This document shows positions 5,736 through 10,402 of a stretch of 10,534 nucleotides of DNA, piece by piece (the first letter of the stretch is position 1; every line of letters starts with the position of its first letter). Position numbers and translations under genes: made by a program. Below the pieces are notes generated by a model, which worked only from the letters and a program-made list of their open reading frames with translations, did not search any database and was not told the DNA's origin. The stretch spans positions 2,326 through 12,859 of the forward strand of contig JAJZMR010000077.1 in assembly GCA_021847535.1 (NCBI GenBank), read 5' to 3'. This DNA comes from a bacterium. Lineage in GTDB: Bacteria > Babelota > Babeliae > Babelales > Babelaceae.

Positions 5736-5778
5736 AGTGTATCCCGATGACTAGATCCAAACACAAATAAGAAAAAAA

Positions 5779-5806
5779 AGTGTAAACTAGTAGGCATCAA
5801 AAACAA
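5779..5806 (-). promoter_or_regulatory. Candidate promoter for the methyltransferase-permease operon
   Basis: Read on the minus strand, TTGTTT (5806-5801) and TACACT (5784-5779) are spaced by 16 bases. They lie about 45 bases upstream of the methyltransferase start. The call is by consensus only. Confidence 0.35.
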
Positions 5807-5826
5807 TTAAATTAAAAGGTCCTGGT

Positions 5827-5889
5827 ATGCAACCATTAATGCTATATAAAAGAGTTTACCAAATAAACAAAAAAGCGCGAATAACTTAG
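5827..5889 (+). CDS. Possible 20-residue leader peptide
   Basis: A short frame starting MQPLMLYKRV and ending at TAG (5887-5889) has a better ribosome-binding site (AAAAGG at 5814-5819, 7 bases from its ATG) than the secreted protein gene that follows 22 bases later. It could be a leader peptide that controls that gene, a tiny basic peptide in its own right, or chance. No family is recognised. Confidence 0.25.
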   Translation: MQPLMLYKRVYQINKKARIT

Positions 5890-5911
5890 AGAATTTTTTC
5901 AAATTGATCAA

Positions 5912-6646
5912 ATGAGTGCTTATATGAAAAGACAGTTATTTTTCTTATCATTATCGTTATTATTTATCTCTTGTTCATATGCTCATCAGACATTAGTTAT
6001 GTCACCAGGTGCTTTCCAGGCACCGAGTGATTTGCGTGTTCAGTCAGTGTTACATGATGAAGATGGATTTCACATTCTCAGAGACAATATTGTTCATCCT
6101 GTTCAAAGACATGATGTTGATGCTAAGATACGCAATATGCGTCAAGATCAGCTTTCGGCATTTCTCAAAGCGGGATATCTAAAAGTTAATAAACTTAGCG
6201 ATGGAAGCTACAAGATAGGAGCTCATGTTCGTGGTGTGGGCGGTGGACCCCTTTTGGCAACACTTTTTTATGGTGCAACTAAAGGCATAATTTATGGAAG
6301 TATGGCTGCTTCAAGCACTGCAGGACTGATAGCTGTTGGTACAACAGTAGGCGCTGCTGTAGGAGGAGAAAATGGTGCTCAGGTAGGTGCTATGGCAGGC
6401 GGCGCTCTTTCAAGCACATTGAATATTGTTGCTTCCGGTAGTCCCATTATAGCCGGCGCTGCAACTACATCAGGTAGTATAGTGTCAGGAGCGGTGGGAG
6501 CTAATGCTGCTATGGCAACTACTACTGCAGTTGGTGTGGGAACGGGAATAGTTGCAACGGGTGGAAACGCTGTCGCATTTAAAGCGGGTGTTGAAATGGC
6601 TGCTGTGACTATGTGGCATATCGGGATGTGGATACCTTGGCTCTAA
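5912..6646 (+). CDS. Secreted protein with glycine-zipper-like hydrophobic C-terminal half
   Basis: The family is not recognised. The 244 residues divide into three parts. Residues 5-24 are a signal peptide, either cleaved after SYA or a lipoprotein signal at FISC with Cys21. Residues 25-110 are a soluble region containing KIRNMRQDQLSAFLKAGYLK and ending in HVRGVGGGP. Residues 111-244 are a Gly/Ala/Thr/Val-rich hydrophobic region with GxxxG spacing, as in GAAVGGENGAQVGAMAGG (147-164), ending in MWIPWL. The composition suggests membrane insertion or oligomerisation, as in glycine-zipper proteins and pore-formers. A start at 5924 (MKRQLFF) gives a more typical signal peptide. The small membrane ORF at 6613 overlaps its 3' end by 34 bases. 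The layout suggests a constant export head with a variable hydrophobic tail, possibly an effector; that role is inference. Confidence 0.75.
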   Translation: MSAYMKRQLFFLSLSLLFISCSYAHQTLVMSPGAFQAPSDLRVQSVLHDEDGFHILRDNIVHPVQRHDVDAKIRNMRQDQLSAFLKAGYLKVNKLSDGSYKIGAHVRGVGGGPLLATLFYGATKGIIYGSMAASSTAGLIAVGTTVGAAVGGENGAQVGAMAGGALSSTLNIVASGSPIIAGAATTSGSIVSGAVGANAAMATTTAVGVGTGIVATGGNAVAFKAGVEMAAVTMWHIGMWIPWL

Positions 6647-6828
6647 AACAACGTGAATGGTCTTTAAAGCGTACTCTTTTACGCGCTTTGATCTCAGGAT
6701 GTCTTTACATGTTATTGATGAATCTTATCAGATGGTACATATGTGAGTTATCTCATAGTATGATTGCCGTAACGGCAATTCCATTCGGTCGTGTGGTGGA
6801 TAGATTCCTTCAAAATCTTGGCATGTAA
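6613..6828 (+). CDS. Small membrane protein overlapping the secreted protein gene
   Basis: This 71-residue frame begins inside the last codons of the secreted protein gene, with a 34-base overlap. It has a charged N-terminus followed by one clear membrane helix (about residues 23-43, containing LISGCLYMLLMNLI) and a weaker hydrophobic stretch near 49-58. No family is recognised. Its place directly behind a hydrophobic secreted protein is like that of an immunity protein or partner. The second cassette downstream has an equivalent small membrane ORF in the same relative position. The true start is uncertain because no Shine-Dalgarno sequence is evident. Its TAA stop (6826-6828) lies within the first bases of the 239-bp repeat. 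Confidence 0.5.
   Translation: MAYRDVDTLALKQREWSLKRTLLRALISGCLYMLLMNLIRWYICELSHSMIAVTAIPFGRVVDRFLQNLGM
6763..6779. other. Perfect inverted repeat within the small membrane ORF
   Basis: ATTGCCGT and ACGGCAAT flank a single A. As RNA this gives a 6-bp stem with a 5-base loop. It lies inside coding sequence and no U-run follows, so it is not a convincing terminator; it could be chance or a weak attenuating hairpin. Confidence 0.3.
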
Positions 6829-6846
6829 TTGATTATATAATTAATT
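6827..6846. promoter_or_regulatory. Near-perfect 20-bp palindrome over the repeat's -35 box
   Basis: AATTGATTATATAATTAATT is symmetric in 9 of 10 base pairs around ATTATATAAT. It covers the proposed -35 box at 6829-6834 and recurs identically at 7498-7517. It could be an operator for a dimeric repressor, or simply AT-rich sequence. Confidence 0.4.
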
Positions 6847-6857
6847 CGAACTAAACT
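6829..6857 (+). promoter_or_regulatory. Candidate promoter carried by repeat copy 1
   Basis: TTGATT (6829-6834) and TAAACT (6852-6857) are 17 bases apart, the optimal sigma-70 spacing, about 40 bases before the ATG of the fusion gene. The same 8-mer TAAACTAG occurs at 5783-5790 upstream of the first secreted protein gene. Confidence 0.5.
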
Positions 6858-6897
6858 AGGGCTCGCTTAAGAACTTAAAAACTCTCAACCGGGCCCT
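6858..6897 (+). promoter_or_regulatory. Stem-loop abutting the fusion gene's start codon
   Basis: AGGGCTCG (6858-6865) can pair over 8 bp, with one G-U pair, with CGGGCCCT (6890-6897), which ends immediately before the ATG at 6898. The 3' arm occupies the place where a Shine-Dalgarno sequence would lie, and none is present. The structure could occlude the start or mark an operator just downstream of the -10 box. It is identical in copy 2 (7529-7568). Confidence 0.5.
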
Positions 6898-7347
6898 ATG
6901 AATATAAATTCAGATATACGCATAAAACTCAATAAGTTTAAACCCCGTCCTTATCAGATGGAGCCGTGCCTTAAGTTCGAAGAAGGCAGAATAAAAAAGT
7001 TCTTGATCGTAAACCCACGACGGTCAGGAAAAGACTATTGCTGGCTTTCGCTCATGATCAGAGAGGCTATCGGAGGCGTGGTAAGTTCAGGAGCAGGTGT
7101 TATAATTGGTTCTGGGCCAGTAGTAGAAGGCATGGCAACATGTGGAGCTGGTGTTCAATTAGGCACTATCATTGGTGGTGGTATTTCTAACGCTCCTCAA
7201 ACTATTGAAGCGATAGAAGAAAGTTCAAAGGTGGTCGCAGCTGCTGGAGTCTCAGTCGCTACTAATATTGCTGGAGAAACTATTGCAGCTATTGAAACGG
7301 GATCAGCTATTGTTGGAGCTTTATTTTCAGGACCTTGGTGCCCATGA
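6898..7347 (+). CDS. Fusion of phage terminase ATPase head to Gly/Ala-rich hydrophobic segment
   Basis: This 149-residue protein has two unrelated parts. Residues 1-56 match the start of tailed-phage large terminases: FKPRPYQ (14-20) is the adenine-binding Q motif and NPRRSGKD (39-46) the Walker A loop. Walker B, the coupling motif and the nuclease domain are absent, so it cannot package DNA. From about residue 58 it becomes a Gly/Ala/Val/Ile-rich hydrophobic stretch (AIGGVVSSGAGVIIGSG onward) ending in GALFSGPWCP, similar in character to the C-terminal half of the protein at 5912. There is no signal peptide. Its stop overlaps the next ORF by ATGA. It may be a headless cassette given a new start by the repeat; whether it is translated is unknown. 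Confidence 0.6.
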   Translation: MNINSDIRIKLNKFKPRPYQMEPCLKFEEGRIKKFLIVNPRRSGKDYCWLSLMIREAIGGVVSSGAGVIIGSGPVVEGMATCGAGVQLGTIIGGGISNAPQTIEAIEESSKVVAAAGVSVATNIAGETIAAIETGSAIVGALFSGPWCP

Positions 7348-7499
7348 ACGATGATTTTGAAAAAATAATTGATGGAATTAGAAAAACTTCATTATCTGAT
7401 AAATCATTATTTAATTTTATCAGTGGAATGACGATTTTCATAGCTAGCATGATACTTTTAAATGCGCTTACCCATTTTTTTCGTTATCTATTTTCGTAA
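7344..7499 (+). CDS. Small membrane protein coupled to the fusion gene
   Basis: This 51-residue frame starts at the ATG of the ATGA overlap with the fusion gene. It begins MNDDFEKIIDGIRK, then has a single membrane helix at about residues 25-45 (FISGMTIFIASMILLNAL), and ends FFRYLFS. Its TAA stop (7497-7499) lies in the first bases of repeat copy 2, just as the first small membrane ORF stops in copy 1. The two small ORFs share little beyond one helix preceded by I-S-G, so homology is not shown. Position and coupling suggest a partner or immunity role for the preceding hydrophobic protein; this is inference. Confidence 0.55.
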   Translation: MNDDFEKIIDGIRKTSLSDKSLFNFISGMTIFIASMILLNALTHFFRYLFS

Positions 7500-7734
7500 T
7501 TGATTATATAATTAATTCGAACTAAACTAGGGCTCGCTTAAGAACTTAAAAACTCTCAACCGGGCCCTATGAATATAAATTCAGATGTACGCATAAAACT
7601 TAATAAATTTAAACCCCGTCCTTATCAGATGGAGCCGTGCCTTAAGTTCGAAGAAGGCAAAATAAAAAAGTTCCTGATAGTAAACCCACGACGGTCAGGA
7701 AAAGACTATTGCTGGCTTTCGCTCATGATCAGAG
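7496..7734 (+). repeat. 239-bp direct repeat, copy 2
   Basis: This is the second copy of the unit at 6825-7063, offset by exactly 671 bases. The regulatory part before the ATG is identical. The coding part differs at six bases: two conservative amino-acid changes (Ile7 to Val, Arg31 to Lys) and four silent changes. It is the last recognisable element before the bamD operon. Confidence 0.97.
7500..7528 (+). promoter_or_regulatory. Candidate promoter carried by repeat copy 2
   Basis: TTGATT (7500-7505) and TAAACT (7523-7528), with a 17-base spacer, are identical to copy 1. It points toward the bamD operon about 345 bases downstream, with no obvious terminator in between, so it may contribute to that operon's expression. 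Confidence 0.45.
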
Positions 7735-7745
7735 TATTGCAATAA
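7569..7745 (+). pseudogene. Truncated terminase large-subunit head, 58 codons
   Basis: This frame is the same terminase start as in the fusion gene, with FKPRPYQ and NPRRSGKD intact. After the repeat ends at 7734 it reads only a few more residues (VLQ) to TAA at 7743-7745. It has the ATP-binding loop but none of the rest of the motor or nuclease, so it is a remnant or a vestigial leader. The coding differences from copy 1 are mostly silent, so the two heads probably diverged while still part of working genes, or under continuing selection on the peptide. Confidence 0.6.
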
Positions 7746-7873
7746 TTACGTTCTTGGGATGTGGATATTGCTCACTCTTAAGGGTATACATTGAACGATG
7801 CATCCCGATTTACAGCTTTTTGCCAACATGATAGGCTCAAGCAAGAACCTCTTGTACAAAGGCGCTATTTTTT
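7746..7873. other. Spacer between repeat copy 2 and the bamD operon
   Basis: These 128 bases hold no complete gene. A frame in phase with TGA at 7875-7877 is open from 7782 and would encode a short tail ending EPLVQRRYFL. It may be the 3' remnant of a gene once overlapping bamD by ATGA, or chance. GGGATGTGGATA at 7756-7767 also occurs at 6623-6634 in the 3' end of the first secreted protein gene. No tRNA or clear terminator is seen. Confidence 0.3.
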
Positions 7874-8737
7874 ATGAAACAACGGATCATTTTTTTTTAT
7901 TTTATCGCAATAATGTTGCTCATTTCTGGATGTAAAAAGCCATACGAATTGTATAAAACGACCTACAAAACGGCCGGAGCGCAACAATTTTTTAACGCAA
8001 CTACCCAAACCCCTCACATTACACCAGCACAAGCGATAAAGAAAAATATTAAACATATGACTTTGGCCGAAGCGCGTGCCGCACGTATCTATTATGAAGA
8101 ACATAATGAGATTGAGCTTATAGAAAAAGTATTAACTCACCTGATAAAGCTCAGTGACAATTATCAAGAAAAGGCAGACTGCTTATACGAACTTGCAACC
8201 ATTCACCTCAGCCTCGGGCGACTTGAAAAGGCGCGGGAACTATTTGAGCAAGTGATTCGTGATTACCCAGGAGTCCCCTGCAAGCGGGAAGCGGCCTATC
8301 GTCTTATTCTCGCTCATTACTGGGACTGCCGAAAAGCAATGAACGACCAAGATATGACAGAAAAGACGCTTCAGCTTATTCAAACATTTATGCAAGAATA
8401 CCCACATGAAATCGAATTTGCTGCAAATTTGGCCATCATGCATGACGAATGTTACAAACTCCTTTTTGATGGTGAACTTTTACGCATGGAATATTATCTA
8501 ACCAAGTATCAGGTCTTTAACGAATCGCAGGCGGTTGAATCGGCACGGATGCGGGCAACCTATATTCTTGAAAAGCTGCTTGAACAACAAAAAAATATCT
8601 CTAGTCAAACCAAAGACCGTATCCTCGATCATTATACGGCAATAAATGCTATACCGGCTGACAATATCCAAGAAAAATATCGACAATTATGCCTGTTGGT
8701 TGAATTACTTGCCGGAAGGGTTATTCAAATACCATGA
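7874..8737 (+). CDS. bamD: BamD-like outer-membrane assembly lipoprotein with TPRs
   Basis: This 287-residue lipoprotein has a hydrophobic signal ending in the lipobox LISGC, with the acylated Cys at residue 20. Helical repeats follow. The clearest TPR lies at about 98-132 (ADCLYELATIHLSLGRLEKA then FEQVIRDYP), followed by a second helix pair around 137-177 ending FMQEYP and a third with ELLRMEYYLTKYQ (201-213). The order of lipobox, TPRs ending in YP, and a later E-x-x-YYL helix resembles BamD, the essential lipoprotein partner of BamA in inserting outer-membrane beta-barrel proteins. It is slightly longer than E. coli BamD, and similarity is modest, so another TPR lipoprotein is possible. 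Its stop overlaps yraN by ATGA. Only a weak ribosome site (AAAGG, 7858-7862) precedes it. Confidence 0.62.
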   Translation: MKQRIIFFYFIAIMLLISGCKKPYELYKTTYKTAGAQQFFNATTQTPHITPAQAIKKNIKHMTLAEARAARIYYEEHNEIELIEKVLTHLIKLSDNYQEKADCLYELATIHLSLGRLEKARELFEQVIRDYPGVPCKREAAYRLILAHYWDCRKAMNDQDMTEKTLQLIQTFMQEYPHEIEFAANLAIMHDECYKLLFDGELLRMEYYLTKYQVFNESQAVESARMRATYILEKLLEQQKNISSQTKDRILDHYTAINAIPADNIQEKYRQLCLLVELLAGRVIQIP

Positions 8738-9111: not shown

Positions 9112-9740
9112 TAACAGAATTTTTACAAAGAGCTGTAACTGCGCTCATGCTTGTGGCCGTTGTTGGTTTTTTATTTTTTGCATGCTCGACTTTTATATAT
9201 ACCCTTTTTTTGGCATGTGCTTTGGGGTATATTCTTGCCGGTGAATGGCCACGCTTTAAACTCTGGTGGCTCACGCCTTGGTATCCGGTACTCCCCTTTT
9301 TAGCCCTCATAGATGTTTATATACATGATAAATGGCTTTGGGCCTATCTTGTCTGTGTGGTTGCAGCATATGACACCGGGGCCTATAGTATCGGAAAATT
9401 ATGGGGGTCGACAAAGATAGCTCCTACTATTAGTGGGCAAAAAACAATCGAAGGGCTTTTGGGCGGGCTTTTGTCTGCTGGAATAATGAGTTTTTTTCTT
9501 CGATTTTTATTGCAAAAAACCCTTTGTTATGGCATAATTTTCCTACTGTTGCAAGGATGCGCCATTGGTCTTGTTGCTTTTTTTGGCGACCTTTGGGAAT
9601 CTTGGTGTAAACGCAAGGGGCAGCTTAAAGATGCTGGAGCGCTTTTGCCGGGACATGGAGGACTTTTGGACCGTATCGATGGCCTTCTTTTGGCAGCATT
9701 GGTGTATGATATTCTTTTAATTACAGGTTTTATGCTATGA
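9108..9740 (+). CDS. cdsA: Phosphatidate cytidylyltransferase (CDP-diglyceride synthase)
   Basis: CdsA makes CDP-diacylglycerol from phosphatidic acid and CTP in the inner membrane, the precursor of phosphatidylglycerol, phosphatidylethanolamine and cardiolipin. The 210 residues contain several hydrophobic helices. They carry the diagnostic C-terminal signature: KIAPTISGQKTIEGLLGG (103-120), then GDLWESWCKRKGQLKDAG (160-177) and LLPGHGGLLDRIDG (179-192), including the metal-binding Asp residues. It is shorter than E. coli CdsA (about 285 residues), mainly at the N-terminal membrane helices, but the catalytic half is complete. It overlaps yraN and the following gene by four bases each. Confidence 0.94.
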   Translation: MITEFLQRAVTALMLVAVVGFLFFACSTFIYTLFLACALGYILAGEWPRFKLWWLTPWYPVLPFLALIDVYIHDKWLWAYLVCVVAAYDTGAYSIGKLWGSTKIAPTISGQKTIEGLLGGLLSAGIMSFFLRFLLQKTLCYGIIFLLLQGCAIGLVAFFGDLWESWCKRKGQLKDAGALLPGHGGLLDRIDGLLLAALVYDILLITGFML

Positions 9741-10402
9741 AAAAATTATTAATCGTCATGCCTTTTATCTTGGCATCAATACAAGCAAGTCAAGAGAGTT
9801 GGAGCGCCAGCGAATCATCGCTCAGTGATGCAGATTACTATTTACGCGGGCAATCTCCAGAGCAAGTCTTTACTTCGATCGAGCTTGACGTATTGTATAA
9901 GATGGGCCTTTTTGAAAAAAACGAAACTTCTCAACCAACAGAAACGAATCATCACACGCCCGAGTTTAAAAAAGTAGCCGCTAAATTTTCTGGGAATTCG
10001 TGCAAAAGTACCCATAAGGAAGCATTTGAAAACGTTATGCGTAATCCAAACGTTGGTTCTCTAGAAAACAAACCTAATGAGCAATCTCACAACATACCCG
10101 AACAATCAGATAGCCCATTAAATCGCGTCAGTCATGATACCACGACCGAGCTTCTTGAAAAAGTAGCCGCTGAAATTTATGGGGCTTGGTGCATAAGTGA
10201 CCATAAGAAAGCGTGTGAAAAAGTTGATTTTCTAGAAAACCAATCTAATGAACAATCTAACAAAATAATCAAACAAGCAAATAGACCATTGAATCGCGCT
10301 TACGAGCAACCAATGACGCAAGCCTCTACGCAACCAAACAAGCTCAGTGATAAAGACGTTAATCAAAAATGGAAGGTAGTACGAGGTTTCGTAATAGAAT
10401 AA
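9737..10402 (+). CDS. Secreted hypothetical protein with an internal duplication
   Basis: The family is not recognised. The 221 residues begin with a signal peptide (MKKLLIVMPFILASIQAS, probably cleaved near residue 17), so the protein is exported to the periplasm or beyond. The rest is polar, rich in Asn, Gln, Ser, Glu and Lys and probably partly disordered. Two related units are visible at about 76-130 and 138-187. Each contains KVAA, a Gly, a Cys (89 and 152), a His-Lys, LEN, NEQS and finally PLNR, with unit 2 about six residues shorter. One Cys per unit suggests a possible disulfide. The gene overlaps cdsA by ATGA, so it belongs to the operon, and is overlapped by the next frame by 34 bases. 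Confidence 0.8.
   Translation: MKKLLIVMPFILASIQASQESWSASESSLSDADYYLRGQSPEQVFTSIELDVLYKMGLFEKNETSQPTETNHHTPEFKKVAAKFSGNSCKSTHKEAFENVMRNPNVGSLENKPNEQSHNIPEQSDSPLNRVSHDTTTELLEKVAAEIYGAWCISDHKKACEKVDFLENQSNEQSNKIIKQANRPLNRAYEQPMTQASTQPNKLSDKDVNQKWKVVRGFVIE

Follow-up and report, generated by a model that had tools for sequence, protein, structure and literature searches.

Gene content of the window

The window, meaning the whole 10,534-nt stretch of DNA analysed here, is part of contig C4 in a draft genome of 765,576 nt. In the other two genomes of the genus that were compared (G001 and G002; loci L082 and L083), a SpoU-type rRNA methyltransferase gene and a TPR/YfiO-like gene are adjacent, with no insert. 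The flanking gene order around these two genes is the same in the window and in both loci, and the island that separates them in the window is an insertion relative to the genus. The following features were assigned.

5736..7873, no strand assigned: inserted island of ~2.1 kb between the SpoU-type rRNA methyltransferase and TPR/YfiO-like genes, from synteny with G001 and G002
5912..6646, + strand: resident polymorphic effector-like protein, putatively secreted, 244 aa (240 aa from ATG 5924), a member of the family described below
6613..6828, + strand: small transmembrane ORF of 71 aa, counted from an uncertain GTG start, candidate immunity gene; best 19-residue hydropathy 1.71
6826..7063, + strand: repeat copy 1, with a 72-nt hairpin leader and terL codons 1-55; 232/238 positions identical to copy 2
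6898..7071, + strand: TerL N-terminal fragment in the fused ORF; 66% identical to residues 4-56 of the TerL of locus L009
7066..7071, + strand: junction microhomology, codons Ala-Ile, from residue-level comparison of TerL (..MIREAI) and P0002 (..GGAIGG)
7072..7347, + strand: P0002-type C-terminal piece (..LFSGPWCP), read as displaced from an old effector allele; P0002 residues 157-249 are identical to residues 57-149 of the fused ORF
7344..7499, + strand: small transmembrane ORF, 51 aa, candidate displaced immunity gene; best 19-residue hydropathy 1.92
7497..7734, + strand: repeat copy 2, with the same leader and terL codons 1-55, from comparison with copy 1
7569..7745, + strand: second TerL head, 58 aa, running three codons past the repeat; TerL profile E 1.1e-20, residues 1-55 aligned

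The resident effector-like protein consists of an N-terminal hydrophobic helix (residues 2-18 in its AlphaFold2 model), an N-domain of ~85 aa, a GGGP hinge and a Gly/Ala-rich C-part ending in ..MWIPWL. The 71-aa ORF behind it overlaps the effector gene by 34 nt and has the position of the family's small transmembrane ORFs. A displaced, orphan C-part and an extra small transmembrane gene follow at 7066-7499. The start of this 51-aa ORF overlaps the stop of the fused ORF (ATGA, 7344-7347), so that the fused frame runs directly into the presumed old partner gene; similarity between the 71-aa and 51-aa ORFs was not detectable. Both effector-partner sets remain open frames. Elsewhere in the window, two direct repeats lie inside the gene of the last complete protein (9737-10402), one of 80 nt with 81% identity and one of 71 nt with 80%, both within 9966-10298.

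The two copies of the 238-nt repeat (6826-7063 and 7497-7734) differ at six positions, four of them silent and the others giving I7V and R31K. Each copy starts at the TAA stop of the preceding small ORF, and the 72-nt stretch leading up to the ATG is the same in both. This leader is predicted to fold stably (z -4.78, with 0/200 shuffles equally stable), and the predicted stem extends to the first base of the fusion ATG, which argues for weak initiation. A 16-base piece of the leader had a single, chance-like match in viral contigs, and no match to the leader was found in the TerL-bearing loci among 95 viral loci.

A terminase head in the fused ORF

The ORF at 6898-7347 (149 aa, ATG start) is open, with no break. 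The preliminary description had taken its first ~56 residues for a phage large terminase, and this identity holds: with a profile derived from six viral-contig TerLs, residues 1-59 score E 5.5e-21 (Z = 1000), and 0/200 shuffled heads match at E<=10. The region carries what we take to be a Q-motif-like element and a Walker A loop. The same description had let the terminase reading stand or fall with a profile hit for the head by itself, and here the outcome is divided. Our TerL profile detects the head, whereas the curated PHROGs and Pfam profiles have no match to so short a sequence, which, taken literally, speaks against the reading. Full-length relatives of the heads match PHROG 2, the terminase large subunit.

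The closest TerLs found are those of viral contigs, with tblastn matches in ten viral loci at 40-74% identity. It had been proposed that other genomes be searched for the same fusion; among the 101 genomes of the phylum the head was found in one, the window's own. With a full TerL as query, the two heads are all that this genome yields, and a distant match occurs in one further genome of the 101. Compared with the large terminase of PHROG 2, the fused ORF is homologous to the first ~57 residues but is devoid of the remaining ATPase and of the nuclease domain, and its tail alone has no TerL profile match. Since the head aligns to positions 1-57 of the 452 of the TerL model, most of the enzyme is missing, and the earlier suggestion of a functional ATP- or nucleic-acid-binding adaptor finds no support.

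A working 149-aa fusion, with a TerL head that acts by ATP or nucleic-acid binding or by poisoning the packaging of related phages, would be in keeping with the open frame and with the differences between the two heads, four of six being silent and two conservative. We nevertheless consider it highly improbable, given that so few of the TerL positions are present, that the head occurs in one genome of 101, that the silent changes could predate truncation, and that the predicted leader hairpin extends to the A of the ATG. The TerL head is a leftover, albeit one that supplies the start codon for a frame overlapping the start of the presumed old partner gene. The other suggestion made for it, a borrowed start codon, fits this ATGA arrangement.

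The tail and the junction

From residue 57 onwards the fused ORF reads, letter for letter, as the end of P0002, an intact 249-aa Gly/Ala-rich protein from an NCBI contig 54,349 nt long. At E<=0.001, three proteins were retrieved with the fusion as query: the fusion itself, P0002 and a 96-aa TerL piece. When P0002 is compared with the window effector (from ATG 5924), the first 109 residues differ at three positions, and the C-parts are 31% identical. Because the tail is the C-terminus of P0002, and the N-part of P0002 resembles the neighbouring protein, the tail represents the displaced end of a different allele of the adjacent gene. These results agree with the preliminary description of an in-frame join of a TerL head to a Gly/Ala-rich tail like that of the putatively secreted neighbour, and its term "headless cassette" proves apt.

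That description had also called the tail membrane-type. The composition is in line with this (20% Gly, 15% Ala, GRAVY 0.81), but the best 19-residue hydropathy is 1.4, below the 1.6 used here as a simple cut-off for a transmembrane stretch, and the label is therefore moderately supported.

At the junction, copy 1 stays TerL for three codons past the repeat (..MIREAI) and then enters the tail, and copy 2 diverges after ..MIR. The Ala-Ile join fits both parents, the two-codon microhomology being known at the protein level. A near-identical repeat of 238 nt can confuse short-read assembly, the draft genome is in 100 contigs, and the join might be an artefact that links two loci. This is very unlikely, as the protein database has the fusion on two contigs (the longest of 13,282 nt, against 12,859 nt for the contig with the window), possibly with shared reads, and as the join lies 3-8 nt past the end of the repeat, within the microhomology.

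A polymorphic family with small transmembrane partners

The effector family is found in 26/101 genomes of the phylum with the window protein as query and in 28/101 with P0002. An HMM of the N-domain identified 36 distinct members in the loci searched, including two phage loci and the window. They share a hydrophobic N-terminal helix, the ~85-aa N-domain, a near-invariant GGG hinge and a Gly/Ala-rich C-part that often ends in Trp/Phe-Pro or a TGPV-like sequence. The 36 ORFs are 160-324 aa long, and members from phages reach 378 aa. Searches of 28 members against Pfam, NCBIfam and PHROGs gave no consistent family, only weak matches of single members. The N-domain alone is modelled by AlphaFold2 with a mean pLDDT of 90.9; in the model of the whole effector most of the C-part has low confidence, with residues 130-214 mostly below pLDDT 50. 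The genome of the window has a second member of the family, of the TGPV type, 96 nt after an rve-type integrase/transposase ORF (L079:6936-7601 and 7697-8263), a possible second vehicle.

Polymorphic toxins are characterized by a conserved N-part and an exchanged C-part. We split 40 sequences at the hinge and compared the two parts separately. Among the best 22 pairs listed, the four that agree best in the N-domain show N/C identities of 99/29 (G044 and G047), 96/31 (the window effector and P0002), 93/38 (two genes of G055) and 93/32 (two genes of G081), i.e., N-parts at least 93% and C-parts at most 38% identical. The next pairs in this set are 73/53 (the window effector and P0005), 73/33 and 71/46, so that C-parts are not always unrelated behind similar N-domains. 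The same set contains the reverse case: the members of L079 and L045 are 55% identical in the N-domain and 85% in the C-part, and their partner ORFs are 82% identical.

An effector-immunity arrangement is expected to place a small gene directly behind the effector gene. Partners were defined as same-strand ORFs of up to 200 aa with a predicted transmembrane stretch, and ORFs under 35 aa were left out of the count, whereby some partners known from the type-pairing were lost. Within 60 nt downstream, a limit set after a first look at the data, such an ORF is present behind 24/35 members and 7/126 other genes (Fisher p 2.5e-14). The 35 are those of the 36 members with more than 250 nt of room, and the 126 controls are genes of at least 150 aa from chromosomal loci only (L015-L045 and L052-L083). 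Behind 11/35 members no small transmembrane ORF was found by the hydropathy criterion.

Partner type also follows the type of C-terminus. Ends of the form TG[PL][VAIF], a pattern picked post hoc, pair with a 'YWYE' partner in 8/12 cases, compared with 0/26 for other ends. In 4/12 the TG-type end has no YWYE partner; two of these exceptions, L027 and L029, have partners of a different type in common, with 37% identity over 129 residues, and between these two members the C-parts are 62% and the N-domains 35% identical. Both comparisons are consistent with an immunity-like, type-specific downstream gene. Extra small transmembrane ORFs stand in arrays behind members at L075:4263-6324 and L076:4579-5632; some are interrelated, and two in L075 are 36% identical to each other.

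These data bear on two other readings of the locus. By plain phage decay, a prophage or phage fragment would have been duplicated and eroded in place, and the fusion would be a chance deletion joint with no toxin-immunity logic. The two terL heads break off at almost the same point, the genome lacks a full-length TerL of this clade, and the 97.5% repeat identity is compatible with tandem duplication. However, the same combination of one N-domain with different C-parts recurs in three further pairs from other genomes, two of which (G055 and G081) also have extra partner ORFs in arrays, and both effector-partner sets of the window are still open frames. We regard plain decay as unlikely.

The effectors could alternatively be aimed at a protist host, as pore formers or membrane remodellers, with the small transmembrane ORF serving as chaperone, second pore subunit or lysis helper. 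The genome had been placed in Dependentiae by the preliminary description, and a cultured member of that group attacks a protist and has secretion signals on nearly half of its inferred proteins, according to the part of PMC6561590 used here; Gly-rich hydrophobic C-parts would also suit membranes. In contrast, C-type and partner type co-vary, including the case of 85% C-part and 82% partner identity at 55% N-domain identity, and extra small transmembrane ORFs occur in arrays, which is the pattern expected of immunity. A host-directed role in protists is thus possible, if on balance rather doubtful. In neither the toxin-immunity nor the host-directed reading would the TerL head be expected to act as an ATPase.

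Carriage by tailed phages

The family was found in 12/88 loci of phages with related TerL; some of these 88 loci share a contig, and the phages L005 and L007 are nearly identical. A transmembrane ORF lies within 80 nt of 9/12 phage members, and 6/12 lie within 1 kb of terL; in phage L142 the small ORF behind the family member is absent. Of the ten viral records first found via the TerL head, four contain family members, two of these records being near-identical phages, and G109 has two copies. The nearest parallel to the window is L128, with the order module, small ORF, further ORF, strong hairpin (z -6.86) and terL; a phage with both the gene order and the leader of the window was not found in the viral contigs and loci searched. 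Two family-carrying phages encode Erf-type annealing proteins, which could favour such joints. As separate observations, the TerL genes of two of these phages contain intein domains (L007:4965-7157 and L014:4995-8432), and an AbiEii-type nucleotidyltransferase gene lies between terL and the effector module at L007:7170-7910, so that the border of terL may serve for cargo in general.

Discussion

The P0002-identical tail and the likeness of the N-domains suggest that the window shows an effector whose C-terminus was replaced, with the old piece and its small membrane-protein gene pushed downstream and the 238-nt repeat, containing the 5' end of terL, as the seam. We think it probable that the fused ORF is the seam of such an effector-module swap, and that the gene pairs are most likely polymorphic membrane-active toxins with membrane immunity proteins.

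The order of events that we infer has two steps. Phage DNA with a P0002-type effector gene, a small transmembrane gene, the leader and terL would have been inserted between two chromosomal genes, after which only the 5' end of terL remained. Next, DNA from a related phage, with another module of the family on it, would have entered and been anchored by homology in the shared N-domain part of the effector gene, its other end, within terL, joining illegitimately to the old effector gene at the Ala-Ile codon microhomology. A new effector C-terminus and a new small transmembrane gene would thereby stand in front, and the old C-terminal piece and old small transmembrane gene behind, in frame with the TerL scrap, which would have arrived flanking a phage-borne module. 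A phage flank common to the resident and the incoming module would account for the repeat. The repeat could alternatively stem from tandem duplication and deletion, which leaves the reading of the fused tail unchanged. The toxin would be exported and consist of the N-domain and hydrophobic C-part, and the small transmembrane protein would confer immunity. The ATGA overlap could, through coupled translation, keep the old partner gene translated, and the retained old gene would protect against kin or phages that still carry the old toxin.

Such an arrangement is predicted by the displacement model for V. cholerae type VI effectors, in which homology anchors one end, the other end joins illegitimately, and the old effector end and immunity gene are shifted behind (as outlined in PMC5361080). 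The likeness comprises the conserved 5' anchor, the illegitimate 3' joint, and the old 3' end with its immunity gene behind the new module. In contrast to the arrays as that source outlines them, the window family is a different protein family with no type VI effector domain, and its seam is a phage terL 5' end.

Other systems resemble the putative products. The CDI ionophore toxins have a membrane-active C-terminal domain, with a putative glycine zipper in group 1, and form polymorphic pairs with small hydrophobic CdiI immunity proteins of 72-100 residues (from the portion of PMC11630599 drawn on here). The C-part of the window family would similarly be membrane-active and of glycine-zipper type, its partner is small and hydrophobic, and the pairs are polymorphic. 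Unlike these toxins as described there, the family is 160-324 aa long (up to 378 aa in phages), has an unrelated N-domain and has no CdiA-like carrier; Pfam identified no CdiA carrier domain in 28 members. In Caulobacter, the glycine-zipper killing proteins CdzC/CdzD are accompanied by a small transmembrane immunity protein, CdzI, much as the window pairs would join a glycine-zipper-type protein with an immunity-like partner. Cdz is a two-protein system with type I secretion, and the part of PMC5380434 used mentions no exchange of C-parts on a common N-domain. MuF toxins of temperate phages are likewise a polymorphic family located at the packaging module of tailed phages (PMC5576092, in the section used). 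The window family differs from MuF as presented there in being common on chromosomes as well and in its domains, with no MuF match by Pfam in 28 members at E<=0.1. The present family is apparently an undescribed polymorphic effector-immunity-like family common to chromosomes and phages. Among the literature matches listed, judged by titles and abstract openings, none linked Dependentiae with polymorphic toxins or with such phages.

The fusion, for all its strangeness, is best read as the scar of a recombination of an ordinary sort; the system in which it occurs is less ordinary. A bolder proposal, which we hold to be improbable, is that the tailed phages of the phylum spread a new polymorphic membrane-toxin/immunity family with the terL border as a recurrent landing site for module exchange, and that the captured TerL start keeps the displaced immunity gene translated via the ATGA overlap, making the fusion a selected immunity-rescue device and no mere scar.

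If the module-swap reading is correct, bacteria known mostly from metagenomes would own a polymorphic toxin-immunity family, present on their chromosomes and on tailed phages and often located beside terL. Its members would be direct candidates for studying how these bacteria, or their phages, compete with one another. The window would then be an unusually readable snapshot of effector replacement, in which the new module, the displaced module and the phage-derived seam between them are all visible.
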